A stretch of DNA of 64,000 nt from Bifidobacterium asteroides. Its GTDB lineage: Bacteria > Actinomycetota > Actinomycetes > Actinomycetales > Bifidobacteriaceae. Below the pieces are notes generated by a model, which did not search any database, was not told where the DNA came from, and saw nothing but the letters and a program-made list of their open reading frames with translations. The stretch is from positions 496,001 through 560,000 of the forward strand of contig NZ_WKKW01000001.1 of NCBI RefSeq assembly GCF_009683175.1, given 5' to 3'. How positions within the stretch are numbered: the stretch's first letter is position 1; each line of letters starts with the position of its first letter. Made by a program: the position numbers and the translations under genes. Of this stretch, positions 40,193-45,899 are shown piece by piece.

Positions 40193-41329
<1,137 letters not shown>

Positions 41330-41359: not shown

Positions 41360-43555
41360 TTAGAGCATGCAGCTGACGCAGCCCTCGACCTCGGTGCCCT
41401 CCAGCGCCTGCTGGCGGATCCTGATGTAGTAGAGGGTCTTGATCCCCTTGCGCCAGGCGTAGATTTGAGCCTTGTTCAGGTCGCGTGTGGTGGCCGTGTC
41501 GGGGAAGAAGAGGGTCAGCGAGAGCCCCTGATCCACATGCTGGGTGGCCTCGGCGTAGGTGTCCACGATCTTCTTCCAGCCGATCTCGTAGGCGTCCTCG
41601 AAGTAGTCCAGGTTCTCGTTGGTCATGTAGGGGGCCGGGTAGTAGACGCGCCCGATCTTGCCCTCCTTGCGGATCTCGATCTTGGAGGCGATCGGGTGGA
41701 TGGAGCTGGTGGAGTGGTTGATGTAGGAGATGGACCCGGTCGGGGGGACGGCCTGGAGGTTCTGGTTGTAGATGCCGTCCTTGAGGATGGCAGCCTGGAG
41801 CTCCTTCCAGTCCTCAACCGTGGGGATGTGGACCTGGTACTGGTCGAAGAGGTCCTTGATCCGCTGGGTCCTGGGCTCCAGGGAACGGCTGCCCTCGGTG
41901 TACTTGTCGAAGTAGTTCCCCTGCCCTGCCGGCTTGGCATAGTCGGACTTGGCGAAGGAGGCGAAGGCCTTACCCCGCTCCACGGCCAGGGCATGGGAGG
42001 CCCTGTAGGCATGGTAGGCCACGGTCATGAAGTACATGTCCGTGAAGTCCAGCCCCTCCTCGGATCCGTAGTGGATGCCCTCGCGGGCCAGGAAACCATG
42101 GAGGTTCATCTGACCCAGGCCGATTGCATGGCCCTCGTCGTTGCCCCGCTTAATTGAGGGGACGGCCTCGATGTTGGTGTGGTCGGAGACGGAGGTCAGG
42201 GCCCGCACCGAGGTCTCGACCGTGTCGGCCAGGCCGCCGTCCATGGCCTTGGCGATGTTCAGTGACCCCAGGTTGCATGAGATGTCGCGGCCGATATGCT
42301 CGTAGTTCAGGTTCTCGGAGTAGGTGCTGGGCTCCTGGACCTGCAGGATCTCCGAGCAGAGGTTGGACATGGTGATCCGGCCGTCGATGGGGTTGGCCTT
42401 GTTGACCGTGTCCTCGAAGAGGATGTAGGGGTAGCCGGACTCGAACTGGATCTCGGCCAGGGTCATGAAGAAGTCGCGGGCGTCAATGTACTTCTTGTGA
42501 ATCCGCTTGTCCTTGACCATCTCCTCGTAGTGCTCGGTGATGGAGATGTCGGCGAAGGGCTTGCCGTAGACCCGCTCCACGTCGTAGGGCGAGAAGAGGG
42601 CCATGGGCTCCTTGCGCTTGGCCAGCTCGAAGGTGATGTCAGGGATGACCACGCCCAGGGCCAGGGACTTGATGCGGATCTTTTCATCTGCATTCTCCCG
42701 CTTGGTGTCCAGGAAGCGCATGATATCGGGGTGGTGGGCCGACAGGTAGACGGCGCCGGCACCCTGGCGGGCACCCAGCTGGTTGGCGTAGGAGAAGGAA
42801 TCCTCCAGGAGCTTCATGACCGGGACCACGCCGCTGGACTGGTTCTCGATGTGCTTGATGGGTGCGCCCATCTCGCGCAGGTTGCTGAGCAGCAGGGCCA
42901 CACCGCCGCCCCTCTTGGACAGCTGCAGGGCGGCGTTGACGCCGCGGGAGATGGACTCCATGTTGTCCTCGATGCGCACCAGGAAGCAGGAGACCGGCTC
43001 GCCGCGCTGGGCCTTGCCCAGGTTCAGGAATGTTGGTGTGGCGGGCTGGAAGCGGCCTGAGATGATCTCATCCGTGTACTTCATGGCGGCCTGCTCGTCC
43101 CCGTCGGCCAGCTCCAGGGCCACGGCCACGCAGCGCTGGGGGAAGTCCTCCAGGTAACGCTTGCCGTCAAAGGTTTTCAGCGCGTAGGAGGTGTAGAACT
43201 TGAAGGCGCCCAGGAAGGTCTCGAACTCGAAGCCGCTCTCGGCCGCATGCTTGTAGATCCTATCCAGGAACTCAGGGGTGTAACGTTCGAAGACCTTCCG
43301 GTCATAGTACTCGTGGTCCAAGAGGTAGGCGATCCTCTCGGCCGTGGAGGGGAAGGTCATGGTGTTGGGCCCCACGTGCCGGTCCATGTACTGGCGCTCT
43401 GCCTCGTGGTCCTTGTCGAACTGAATCCTGCCGTCCTTGTCGTACAGGTTCAGCATGGCGTTCAGGGCATGGTAGTCGTGAGCCGGATCGAAGGTCTCCT
43501 CATCCTCAGATGCGGTCCTATCCAGGGCCAGGGACGTGTCCTCGTTTGCTCCCAT
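41360..43555 (-). CDS. nrdE: Ribonucleotide reductase catalytic subunit NrdE, class Ib
   Basis: The R1 subunit reduces ribonucleoside diphosphates. The ATG at 43555 (731 aa, [14 protein letters not shown]) is chosen because AAAGGA lies 6 nt upstream; the ATG five codons earlier lacks one. Active-site cysteines appear in [10 protein letters not shown] and [11 protein letters not shown], the radical-site stretch in [14 protein letters not shown], and the NrdH-reducible tail in EGCVSCML. There is no N-terminal ATP-cone, as expected for class Ib. It is the only NrdE in the window and probably serves both NrdF proteins. No nrdH is present here. Confidence 0.97.
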
Positions 43556-43606
43556 CGGGTGTCCTTTCATGAATATGACGATGATGATACGAGTAATGAA
43601 ATCGGC

Positions 43607-44104
43607 TCAGGACTCGGGGTGGTTGCGGAAGAAATCCACGACCCCGCGGCGGACCTTCTCCTGGTCCTCCTTGGTGCCCATGAGCTCGAAATAGTAGAGG
43701 AAGGGCACATTGCACTTGCGGGAGATGATATCCCCCGCCATGCAGAAGGCCTCCCCGAAGTTGGTGTTGCCCGAGGCGATGACCCCGCGGATACCGGCCC
43801 GGTTGGCCGGATCGTTCAGGAAGCGCTTGATCTGCGGCATGACCGCCTTCTTGGCTGACCCTCCCCCATAGGTGGGGACGATCAGGATGTAGGGCTGCCG
43901 AATGTTGAGCGGCGGGTCCTTGGGCCTCAGCGGGATGCGGAAGACGTCAATCCCCTCGTCATCCAAATGGCAGTTGGCGATGAACCGGGCGGTGTTGCGC
44001 GAGGCCGACGAGAAGTAGACCACGGCCCCCAGGCGCTGACCCTGGGCGGCGAACTCGGGAGCGCTGAGCTCCGAATCAGTTCCGGCGGTCTGCTGTTGCT
44101 CCAT
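43607..44104 (-). CDS. nrdI: NrdI flavodoxin, copy paired with nrdE
   Basis: A 165-aa flavodoxin-like protein that makes superoxide/peroxide for NrdF cofactor activation. FMN-binding signs are [27 protein letters not shown] and ASGNTNFGEAFCMAG. About 26 residues precede the core. AGGAGG lies just upstream of the ATG. It sits 51 bp before nrdE. A 175-bp gap with two NrdR-box-like sites separates it from nrdF2. Confidence 0.95.
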   Translation of the reverse strand: MEQQQTAGTDSELSAPEFAAQGQRLGAVVYFSSASRNTARFIANCHLDDEGIDVFRIPLRPKDPPLNIRQPYILIVPTYGGGSAKKAVMPQIKRFLNDPANRAGIRGVIASGNTNFGEAFCMAGDIISRKCNVPFLYYFELMGTKEDQEKVRRGVVDFFRNHPES

Positions 44105-44197: not shown

Positions 44198-44244
44198 CTA
44201 CTATATGTGCTATCGATATCGAAAACGGTGAGCATATATAGGGT
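44198..44244 (-). promoter_or_regulatory. Candidate NrdR box pair upstream of nrdI1
   Basis: Two 16-bp sites starting at 44198 (core CTATATGTG) and 44229 (core ATATATAGG) lie 31 bp apart. This equals three helical turns, the spacing typical of NrdR box pairs. Each is a weaker match to ACACWATATATWGTGT than the pair before nrdI2. Confidence 0.55.
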
Positions 44245-44279: not shown

Positions 44280-45344
44280 CTAGAAGTCCCAGTCGTCGTC
44301 GTCCGTGGACTCGGAGTGCCCCATGACGTAGGAGGAGCCCGAACCCGAGAAGAAATCATGGTTCTCGTTGGCCGATGGCGACAGGGCCGCCAGGATCTCC
44401 GAACTGACATCGGTCTGGTCGGCTGCGAACCGGGCCGGGTAGCCCAGGTTCATCAGCGCCTTGTTGGCATTGTAGCGAACGAAGGCGAAGACATCCTCGA
44501 CGAAGGGGAAGCCCTCATAGATCTGCCCGGAGTAGACCATCTCCAGATCATAGAGCTTGTCCAGCAAATCATTGGTGAACTTCTCCAGCATGGCCTGGTC
44601 GGCCTGGGTCCTCTCCTCCAGACCCCGCTGATACTTGTAGCCCGAGTAATAGCCGTGGATGGCCTTGTCGCGCAGGATCAGACGGATCATGTCAGCCGTG
44701 TTCATCAGCTTGGCATGGCTGGAGAAGTAGAGAGGCAGGTAGAAGCCCGCATAAAGCATGAGGGAGGAGAGCATGGTGGAGGCCACCTTGCGCTTCAGGG
44801 GATCCTCGCTGACATACTCGTGCAGGACCGTGTGGACGCGCTCCTGGAGGACGTCGTTGGCCACGGCCCAGCGGTAGGCCTTGTCAATCTCCTCGCTGGA
44901 GCAGAGGGTGGAGAAGACCGAGGAGTAGGAGCGGGCATGGACCGACTGCATGAAGGCGATGTTGGTGTAGATGGCCTGCTCCTGCTCGGTGCGGGCATGA
45001 TCGATCTGCACCAGCTCGCCGATGGTGGCCTGGGTGGTGTCCAGCATGGTCAGTCCGGTGAAGACGCGGACCGTGGTCTGGCGCTCGTGATCGGTCAGCG
45101 TGTTCCAGGATGGGATGTCGTTGGACAGCGGCACCTTCTCGGGCAGCCAGAAGTTGGAGACCAGGCGGTTCCAAACTTCCAGATCCTTCTCGTCGGTGAT
45201 CTTGTTCCAGTTGACCGGGCGAATCCTGGCCTCAGGGGTGACACGGTACTGGGGCGGGGTGATGGATTGGCGCATCATCTCGTCGTCGGCATAGACGCCG
45301 GCCTCTGACTTGGTGCTTTCTTGCGTGCTTTCCTGCTGGCTCAT
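44280..45344 (-). CDS. nrdF: NrdF2, ligand-substituted R2 (class Ie, QSK type)
   Basis: A full-length, 354-aa R2-fold protein with a 30-residue N-terminal extension. Compared with the other NrdF, three metal-binding glutamates are replaced: Gln133 (in MQSVHARSY), Ser193 (MLSSLMLY) and Lys227 (RDKAIHGYY). Asp102, His136, His230 and the radical-position Tyr140 remain. This Q/S/K triplet is the mark of class Ie R2 proteins, which work without metal using a tyrosine-derived DOPA radical made with NrdI. The C-terminal tail DDDDWDF equals that of NrdF1. It overlaps nrdI2 by ATGA. Nothing suggests a pseudogene. Confidence 0.93.
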
Positions 45345-45829
45345 GACAAAACCGCCTTTCGTGAATCAGTCGACTGCTGCTGGAGCTGCACTCCCATACC
45401 GGCCAGAATGGCCCTGACCGCTTGAACATCCTCCGAGGTGCCCAGCAGCTCGAAGCGATAGAGCTCGGGGACGCCGCACCGGCGGGCTATCAACGGGCCG
45501 GCTGCGCAATAGGCGCTGCCGAAGTTTCGGTTGCCCGAGGTGATGACCCCGCGAATCAGCCCGCGGTTGACCGGATTGTTCAGGAAGTGGATGACCTGCT
45601 TGGGCACGGCTCCCTTGGCTGACCCGCCGCCATAGGTGGGCACCAGCAGAAGGTAGGGCGTATCCATAACGGGCATGGGCTGGCGCCGCTCATACAGGGG
45701 GATGCGGATGGGCCCCTCCACGCCCAGCCGCTGTACAAAGCGGTGGGTGTTGTTGGAGACGCTGGAGAAATACACCAGCCTGGAGGCGCCATCGGGAGGA
45801 TCGTGCCGATCCACATCTGCTGAGGACAT
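45341..45829 (-). CDS. nrdI: NrdI flavodoxin, copy paired with nrdF2
   Basis: A 162-aa flavodoxin starting at the ATG 45829 ([16 protein letters not shown]); AAGGAG lies about 11 nt upstream, and 20 further codons upstream would overlap the NrdR-box region. Core motifs are [29 protein letters not shown] and [15 protein letters not shown]. In class Ie systems NrdI is needed to hydroxylate the R2 tyrosine. Its tight coupling to nrdF2, and its divergence from the other NrdI, fit a dedicated partner. Confidence 0.94.
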
Positions 45830-45851: not shown

Positions 45852-45899
45852 ACACTATATATTGGATAAAATTGGCCAGCCAACCACAATATATAGGTT
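45852..45899 (-). promoter_or_regulatory. NrdR box pair upstream of nrdI2-nrdF2
   Basis: Two sites fit the NrdR consensus ACACWATATATWGTGT well: ACACTATATATTGGAT (45852-45867) and CCACAATATATAGGTT (45884-45899). Their starts are 32 bp apart and they lie 22-70 bp before the nrdI2 start. NrdR represses reductase genes when dATP/ATP is high, so this pair should set the level of the class Ie genes. Confidence 0.8.

Follow-up and report, generated by a model that had tools for sequence, protein, structure and literature searches.

A ribonucleotide reductase R2 subunit assigned to the QSK type of class Ie is encoded beside a class Ib R2 and a single R1 gene in Bifidobacterium asteroides

What kind of R2 subunit is encoded by the second of two nrdF genes that lie in one ribonucleotide reductase (RNR) locus of Bifidobacterium asteroides, and what is its role beside the first? 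The locus is contained in the window, i.e. the whole 64,000-nucleotide stretch of contig NZ_WKKW01000001.1 that was analysed, and comprises five genes on the minus strand in the order nrdI2-nrdF2-nrdI1-nrdE-nrdF1 within 5.7 kb. The products of nrdI2 (45341..45829; 162 aa from the ATG at 45829) and nrdI1 (43607..44104; 165 aa, belonging to the Bifidobacteriaceae NrdI group) match TIGR00333 with scores of 149.7 and 138.1 bits, respectively (cut-off, 74.65). The nrdF2 gene (44280..45344) encodes an R2 subunit of 354 aa that starts with ATG and has an N-terminal extension, nrdE (41360..43570) encodes the R1 subunit and is the sole PF02867 match in the genome, and nrdF1 (40193..41188) encodes a class Ib (dimanganese-type) R2 in which all six metal ligands are present. 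The TGA of nrdI2 overlaps the ATG of nrdF2 (ATGA), and thus these two genes are probably coupled translationally. The genome (99.99% complete) contains two nrdF genes, one R1 of class I type, a class III NrdD, an NrdH encoded elsewhere, and NrdR. Since nrdE is the only class I R1 gene in the genome, NrdE serves both R2s, if both work. Loci almost identical to that of the window (99%) were found in Bifidobacterium choladohabitans, B. mellis, and B. apousia, which are bee-gut species.

Translation and alignment bore out the original prediction with respect to the position of nrdF2, its ligand residues, and the retention of Tyr140: D102, Q133, H136, Y140, S193, K227, and H230 of NrdF2 align with D79, E110, H113, Y117, E170, E204, and H207 of NrdF1, i.e. 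three of the D, E, H, E, E, H ligands are replaced. The codons are CAG for Q133 (44948-44946), TCC for S193 (44768-44766), AAG for K227 (44666-44664, minus strand, as had been claimed), and CAC for H230 (44657-44655). The two proteins share 193 identical aligned residues (59% identity in the genome search) and the same last eight residues, TDDDDWDF. For an R2 tree, open frames of at least 200 bits and at least 280 residues were taken from 137 loci, both window proteins were added, and rows with identical last 290 residues were collapsed, yielding 103 rows; a remnant of nrdF2 in one genome (G002) and an odd third paralogue in another (G001) were left out. The seven positions read DQHYSKH in 49 of these rows and DEHYEEH in 54, with no intermediates, which indicates that the substitutions in NrdF2 are not due to chance. 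In the tree, which was built by a quick method with SH-aLRT and no bootstrap after removal of the three diagnostic columns, one branch (SH-aLRT 100) parts the 49 QSK rows from the 54 class Ib rows; the proposed phylogenetic check thus placed NrdF2 inside the QSK clade, in a comparison limited to QSK and Ib rows. NrdF2 lies within a Bifidobacteriaceae QSK group of 20 rows (SH-aLRT 99) that includes Gardnerella. In a chosen alignment of 39 rows, again limited to these two kinds, 18 columns beyond the three ligands separate the 33 QSK rows from the 6 Ib rows, and W66, H136, Y140, D226, and Y339 are invariant in all 39. The latter five are, by equivalence to Escherichia coli R2, presumably the radical-transfer positions.

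Among solved structures, the best matches of NrdF2 were 8RAG and 8RAH (E 1e-181; 78% identity), the QSK class Ie R2 of Gardnerella vaginalis (GTDB Bifidobacterium vaginale) described in PMC11846895, followed by chains of class Ib type and then by the class Ie chains of Aerococcus and Mesoplasma; the best matches of NrdF1 were chains of class Ib type. The active-site residues of NrdF2 correspond to D112, Q143, H146, Y150, S203, K237, and H240 of the Gardnerella protein at a constant offset of 10. An AlphaFold model of NrdF2 (mean pLDDT 84.8, with both chain ends unsure) returned 8RAG/8RAH chains as all five top Foldseek matches (78% identity); superposition of the model on 8RAG gave an rmsd of 12.8 Å (TMq 0.72), which counts against the assignment. 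The N-terminal 46 residues used as a query match 8RAG from residue 2 and VPK chains from residue 8 or 11, whereas class Ib chains match only from residue 24 or 25. Across the fetched rows, most of which are cut at the match start, 18-47 residues precede W46 in QSK and 5-23 in Ib proteins, so that the ranges overlap. NrdF2 therefore combines Gln, Ser, and Lys in place of three Glu with the retained Asp, two His, and Tyr and with an N-terminus extended as in 8RAG, and both an nrdI and a class Ib-type nrdE are encoded with it. Assignment of NrdF2 to the QSK type of class Ie, as originally predicted, is supported by the residue match to the Gardnerella protein, by the tree, and by the fold search. 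The VPK type was ruled out because NrdF2 reads Q133, S193, and K227 instead of Val, Pro, and Lys, and a dimanganese class Ib R2 was ruled out because the D, E, H, E, E, H ligand set is lacking. NrdF2 nevertheless scores above cut-off with the NCBIfam class 1b models, and such automatic family models do not seem to separate class Ie.

NrdF2 is thus a known kind of R2 in an informative arrangement. A QSK enzyme of the same family was characterised biochemically in 2025 (PMC11846895). According to that report, a lysine ammonium group fills the Mn1 place (this lysine is the counterpart of Lys227) and a water molecule the Mn2 place in the Gardnerella protein, neither Fe nor Mn is bound, Y150 is converted to DOPA upon co-expression with NrdI, and CDP reduction was observed, the purified form not being in the radical state. 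The same source states that the QSK genomes it found all belong to four orders of Actinomycetota, in agreement with the original statement that this type is actinobacterial; its text puts G. vaginalis in the order Lactobacillales, which is probably a slip. The expected need for NrdI is matched in the window by the nrdI2 gene that adjoins nrdF2. The Gardnerella system resembles that of the window in its active-site set, its N-terminal extension, and the NrdE and NrdI encoded alongside, but its genes form an nrdHIEF set in which the sole nrdF is the QSK gene, and its NrdI groups with NrdI1, whereas in the window NrdF2 is additional to a retained NrdF1 and has a separate NrdI2 that falls outside the Gardnerella NrdI group. 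The VPK proteins of Mesoplasma florum and Aerococcus urinae (6GP2, 6EBO) are likewise of class Ie, have an N-terminal extension and, going by the name VPK, carry Lys at the last Glu position; they differ in showing 49-52% identity to NrdF2, in having V and P for Q and S, and in the gene order nrdFIE (as given in PMC11846895). Class Ib R2s, i.e. NrdF1, Mycobacterium tuberculosis NrdF2 (8J4X), and E. coli NrdF (3N37), share with the window NrdF2 the fold, the radical-transfer residues, the C-terminal tail, and an NrdI partner, but have the three metal-binding Glu and lie on the opposite side of the R2 tree. Sharing of R1 between QSK and dimanganese R2s has already been inferred in PMC11846895, which counts 104 nrdIF stretches with a QSK nrdF and with nrdE elsewhere; these resemble the window in having their own NrdI and an apparently shared R1, but the window cassette directly precedes an nrdI-nrdE-nrdF1 set.

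Within the genus, nrdF1 and one full-length nrdE were found in each of 27 genomes. Thirteen have the five-gene order, with nrdF1 located ~4 kb downstream of nrdF2, and a search for NrdI detected two copies in exactly these 13 and one in the other 14. The nrdF2 gene accompanies a single nrdI in five genomes (G022, G026, G004, G008, and G011), and NrdF2 can thus be served there only by the NrdI of the manganese enzyme. Two of these, G022 and G026, have the order nrdF2-nrdI1-nrdE-nrdF1 without nrdI2; in G022, the sequence read between an upstream aminotransferase-like gene and nrdF2 contains no nrdI2, and the upstream boxes described below are present. In the other three, a lone nrdF2 lies far from nrdI1-nrdE-nrdF1. 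G002 retains only the end pieces of nrdF2 (residues about 79-256 are gone), and the gene was not found in 8 of the 27 genomes, which together indicate that nrdF2 is accessory and dispensable. All seven diagnostic residues are kept in the 18 full copies. In G008 (L119:3113-5266; TIGR01525, 446 bits) and G004 (L117:1729-3717; 443 bits), a heavy-metal P-type ATPase gene stands upstream of the lone nrdF2 in the same orientation, and a Fur-like frame was seen by eye further on in L117; the neighbours of the lone gene in G011 and B. bohemicum differ, by eye, from this setting. In Bifidobacterium sp. ESL0682 (L043:5980-7164), an apparent frame change near the end of nrdF2 replaces the R1-docking tail with unrelated residues.

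In a tree of 83 NrdI rows, NrdI2 of the bee-gut group is placed with the NrdIs of non-bifidobacterial QSK loci (84/86), a support below the star threshold at a point where, as the program warned, long branches meet; NrdI1 and the NrdIs of Gardnerella and B. thermophilum/boum form one Bifidobacteriaceae group (100/99). Grouping of NrdI2 with the NrdIs of the Gardnerella/thermophilum/boum QSK operons was rejected (AU p 0.005; the group was named after the tree had been seen). The same test did not reject a common clade of NrdI1 and NrdI2, as would result from simple duplication within the family (AU p 0.21), and so the tree does no more than favour a foreign origin of NrdI2. As the R2e proteins form one Bifidobacteriaceae group, the adjoining NrdI changed at least once. 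Since the Gardnerella NrdI belongs to the NrdI1 group, an NrdI that supports DOPA formation (PMC11846895, as described there) comes from a lineage that serves class Ib enzymes in relatives. In L036-L041 (Gardnerella and B. thermophilum/boum), the QSK nrdF follows nrdE and an nrdI of the nrdI1 type, where nrdF1 would normally stand, which suggests replacement in place. We tentatively propose that the metal-free R2 parted from its dedicated NrdI more than once in Bifidobacteriaceae: an NrdI2 of the wider actinobacterial QSK kind may have been kept only in the bee-gut group, with an NrdI of the manganese-enzyme lineage being used in G022, G026, the three lone-nrdF2 genomes, Gardnerella, and B. 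thermophilum/boum, and the whole set acting as an NrdR-gated reserve on one shared R1. The finding of a single nrdI in all five genomes that carry nrdF2 and lack nrdI2 raised this proposal from unlikely to one worth tentative consideration. If it is correct, the R2 site, and no special NrdI, would determine DOPA formation, and a five-gene locus that lost nrdI2 would be left with an F-I-E order that is otherwise typical of VPK enzymes.

Two NrdR-like sites, identified by their match to the consensus ACACWATATATWGTGT, precede nrdI2 on the minus strand. Box 1 (45852..45867; 2 mismatches) overlaps a -10-like hexamer, TATAGT, and box 2 (45884..45899; 3 mismatches), 32 bp from box 1, lies directly before a -35-like TTGGCT that starts at 45883. 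Box 1 is the only site in the genome with as few as 2 mismatches, and sites with up to 3 occur at six positions (two of them overlapping), compared with three for a reversed control. This pair was equalled in none of 1000 first-order shuffles, and neither was a weaker pair before nrdI1 (44198..44244, minus strand; 31 bp apart, 11 mismatches over 32 positions); no pair stood out before nrdF1 (983 of 1000 shuffles). Weak pairs with 11 mismatches each also occur before nrdD and near nrdH. Between nrdE and nrdF1, a GC-rich hairpin of 14 pairs with a short T-containing tail (41298-41329) may lower or end read-through into nrdF1; terminator-like sites in the region, including this hairpin, numbered 5 against 3.9 expected.

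The pair before nrdI2 recurs in all 12 five-gene relatives scanned, similar pairs precede nrdF2 in G022 and G026, and in each of five lone nrdF2 loci tested a pair was present that none of 500 shuffles matched. Over 982,074 bases of named loci, the spacings of 31 and 32 bp jointly accounted for 48 pairs with up to 10 mismatches, and no other spacing between 24 and 40 bp had more than 16. NrdR spacers are reported in PMC12051234 to be best at 15-17 bp, which with 16-bp boxes corresponds to 31-33 bp from start to start; the predicted boxes thus form a promoter pair about three helix turns apart in a genome with an NrdR gene, as is expected of an NrdR regulon. Pairs equalled by at most 2 of 200 shuffles were found at 22 of the 42 testable QSK loci and 26 of the 36 testable Ib loci (one locus of each kind was not testable), and many Corynebacterium QSK loci had none by this count. 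These figures are undercounts, because the open frame of nrdI2 starts inside the boxes in L033-L035 and the boxes lie more than 500 bases upstream in L039-L041. Within 350 bases before nrdF or nrdI, no pair beat the shuffles in two Gardnerella loci and one B. thermophilum locus (best, 16 of 500 shuffles, nrdI of L037); L036-L041 have pairs further upstream, at 2585-2665.

Taken with the homology to the Gardnerella enzyme, these features make it very likely that NrdF2 is a QSK class Ie R2 that uses a DOPA radical on the shared NrdE, with nrdI2-nrdF2 as a second supply that NrdR would release. NrdF2 most likely works as a metal-free R2 activated by NrdI2, and NrdI1 probably activates it as well. 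By homology, Lys227 and a water molecule would stand in for the two metal ions, and Tyr140 would be converted to DOPA by an oxidant formed from reduced NrdI and O2. The radical would then reach the active-site cysteine of NrdE by way of His136, Asp226, Trp66, and Tyr339 near the C-terminus, and NrdE would serve NrdF2 as well as NrdF1. The coupled nrdI2-nrdF2 cassette would stand under NrdR before an NrdR-controlled nrdI1-nrdE and nrdF1, and could be released when dATP falls, e.g. on the arrival of O2 or when NrdF1 is short of manganese; metal shortage could act through this route by stalling NrdF1.

It is very improbable that NrdF2 is a decaying duplicate. The G002 remnant, the C-terminal frame change in L043, and the absence of the gene from 8 of 27 genomes would fit such decay, but the seven diagnostic residues are intact in every full copy and dN/dS against 12 relatives ranged from 0.010 to 0.070 for nrdF2 (0-0.017 for nrdF1, 0-0.174 for nrdI2, and 0-0.115 for nrdI1), all 12 pairs sharing the window sequence and therefore not being independent. 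nrdF2 is under purifying selection by this measure, and nrdI2 had a higher dN/dS than nrdI1 in 10 of the 12 comparisons, a lower one in 1, and a tie in 1. Hardly more credible is the idea that NrdF2 pairs with NrdF1 in a mixed dimer instead of acting as an independent radical subunit, for which yeast Rnr4 is the comparison case. Both R2 genes share a locus in 15 of the 27 genomes and nrdF1 is kept in all 18 with nrdF2, as such a partnership might require, but the radical tyrosine, the transfer residues, and the R1-docking tail are all retained in NrdF2. Moreover, the solved relative is described in PMC11846895 as a homodimer with a large interface; according to the same text, Gardnerella has no class I R2 other than the QSK protein, and QSK enzymes are the sole RNR in 65 species by one of its figures and in 67 by another.

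With NrdF2 taken as an independent QSK enzyme, two further readings concern its use in the cell, the conditions of which are not understood for class Ie according to PMC8463856. The original prediction was that it permits DNA synthesis when the host withholds metals; in the form considered here, a metal regulator would sense the lack of iron or manganese. This role is plausible, yet we regard it as unlikely. The Ie operon of Streptococcus pyogenes is repressed by Fe and Mn, which PMC8463856 calls consistent with a backup role. The lone nrdF2 following a heavy-metal P-type ATPase gene in L119 and L117 also points in this direction. Against it, forms of the DtxR, Fur, MntR, and Zur sites, taken from other genera and perhaps unsuited to this one, were clearly better than shuffles before none of the four window units, including those of nrdI2 and nrdI1 (lowest, 61 of 500 shuffles, Fur before nrdE). 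The DtxR, Fur, and Zur forms, with the same reservation, were likewise not above chance upstream of the five lone nrdF2 genes or of nrdF and nrdI in the two Gardnerella loci and one B. thermophilum locus (lowest, 30 of 200), whereas the NrdR-like pairs before the lone genes beat every shuffle. Further, a class Ib R2 and a class III NrdD are available in this genome, and nearly a third of the genus genomes, the 8 mentioned above, manage without nrdF2. A role in aerobic or oxidative growth is possible, if still doubtful: bee-gut bifidobacteria are O2-tolerant, and a metal-free subunit would be spared peroxide damage to metal sites. PMC6244367 reports that nrdHIEF is the most induced cluster and nrdR falls when B. 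longum is exposed to O2, and mentions that B. asteroides has a gene for a haem catalase; the NrdR-like boxes of the window locus agree with this. However, class Ib is O2-induced as well, and hence the induction carries nothing specific to NrdF2.

The preferred reading, a QSK enzyme released through NrdR, can be examined in a single cell, where one locus encodes a manganese-type R2, a metal-free R2, and two NrdIs along with the only class I R1. Together with the natural variants in the genus, i.e. those without nrdI2, without nrdF2, or with a lone nrdF2, the locus offers a clean test of R2 use, of the ability of a class Ib NrdI to support DOPA formation, and of NrdR versus metal control. Our literature search found no paper on a metal-free R2 in bee-gut Bifidobacterium; the supplementary tables of PMC11846895 may list these genomes. 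In G001, the third, divergent NrdF-like frame (501 aa; L146:1763-3268, contig G001:C1, minus strand) has a long insert and a DDDWDF tail, and several of its metal ligands are apparently changed, the last Glu and His reading I and S by eye. An open frame with only the C-terminal part of NrdE lies ~1 kb from it, in a stretch that is listed twice.
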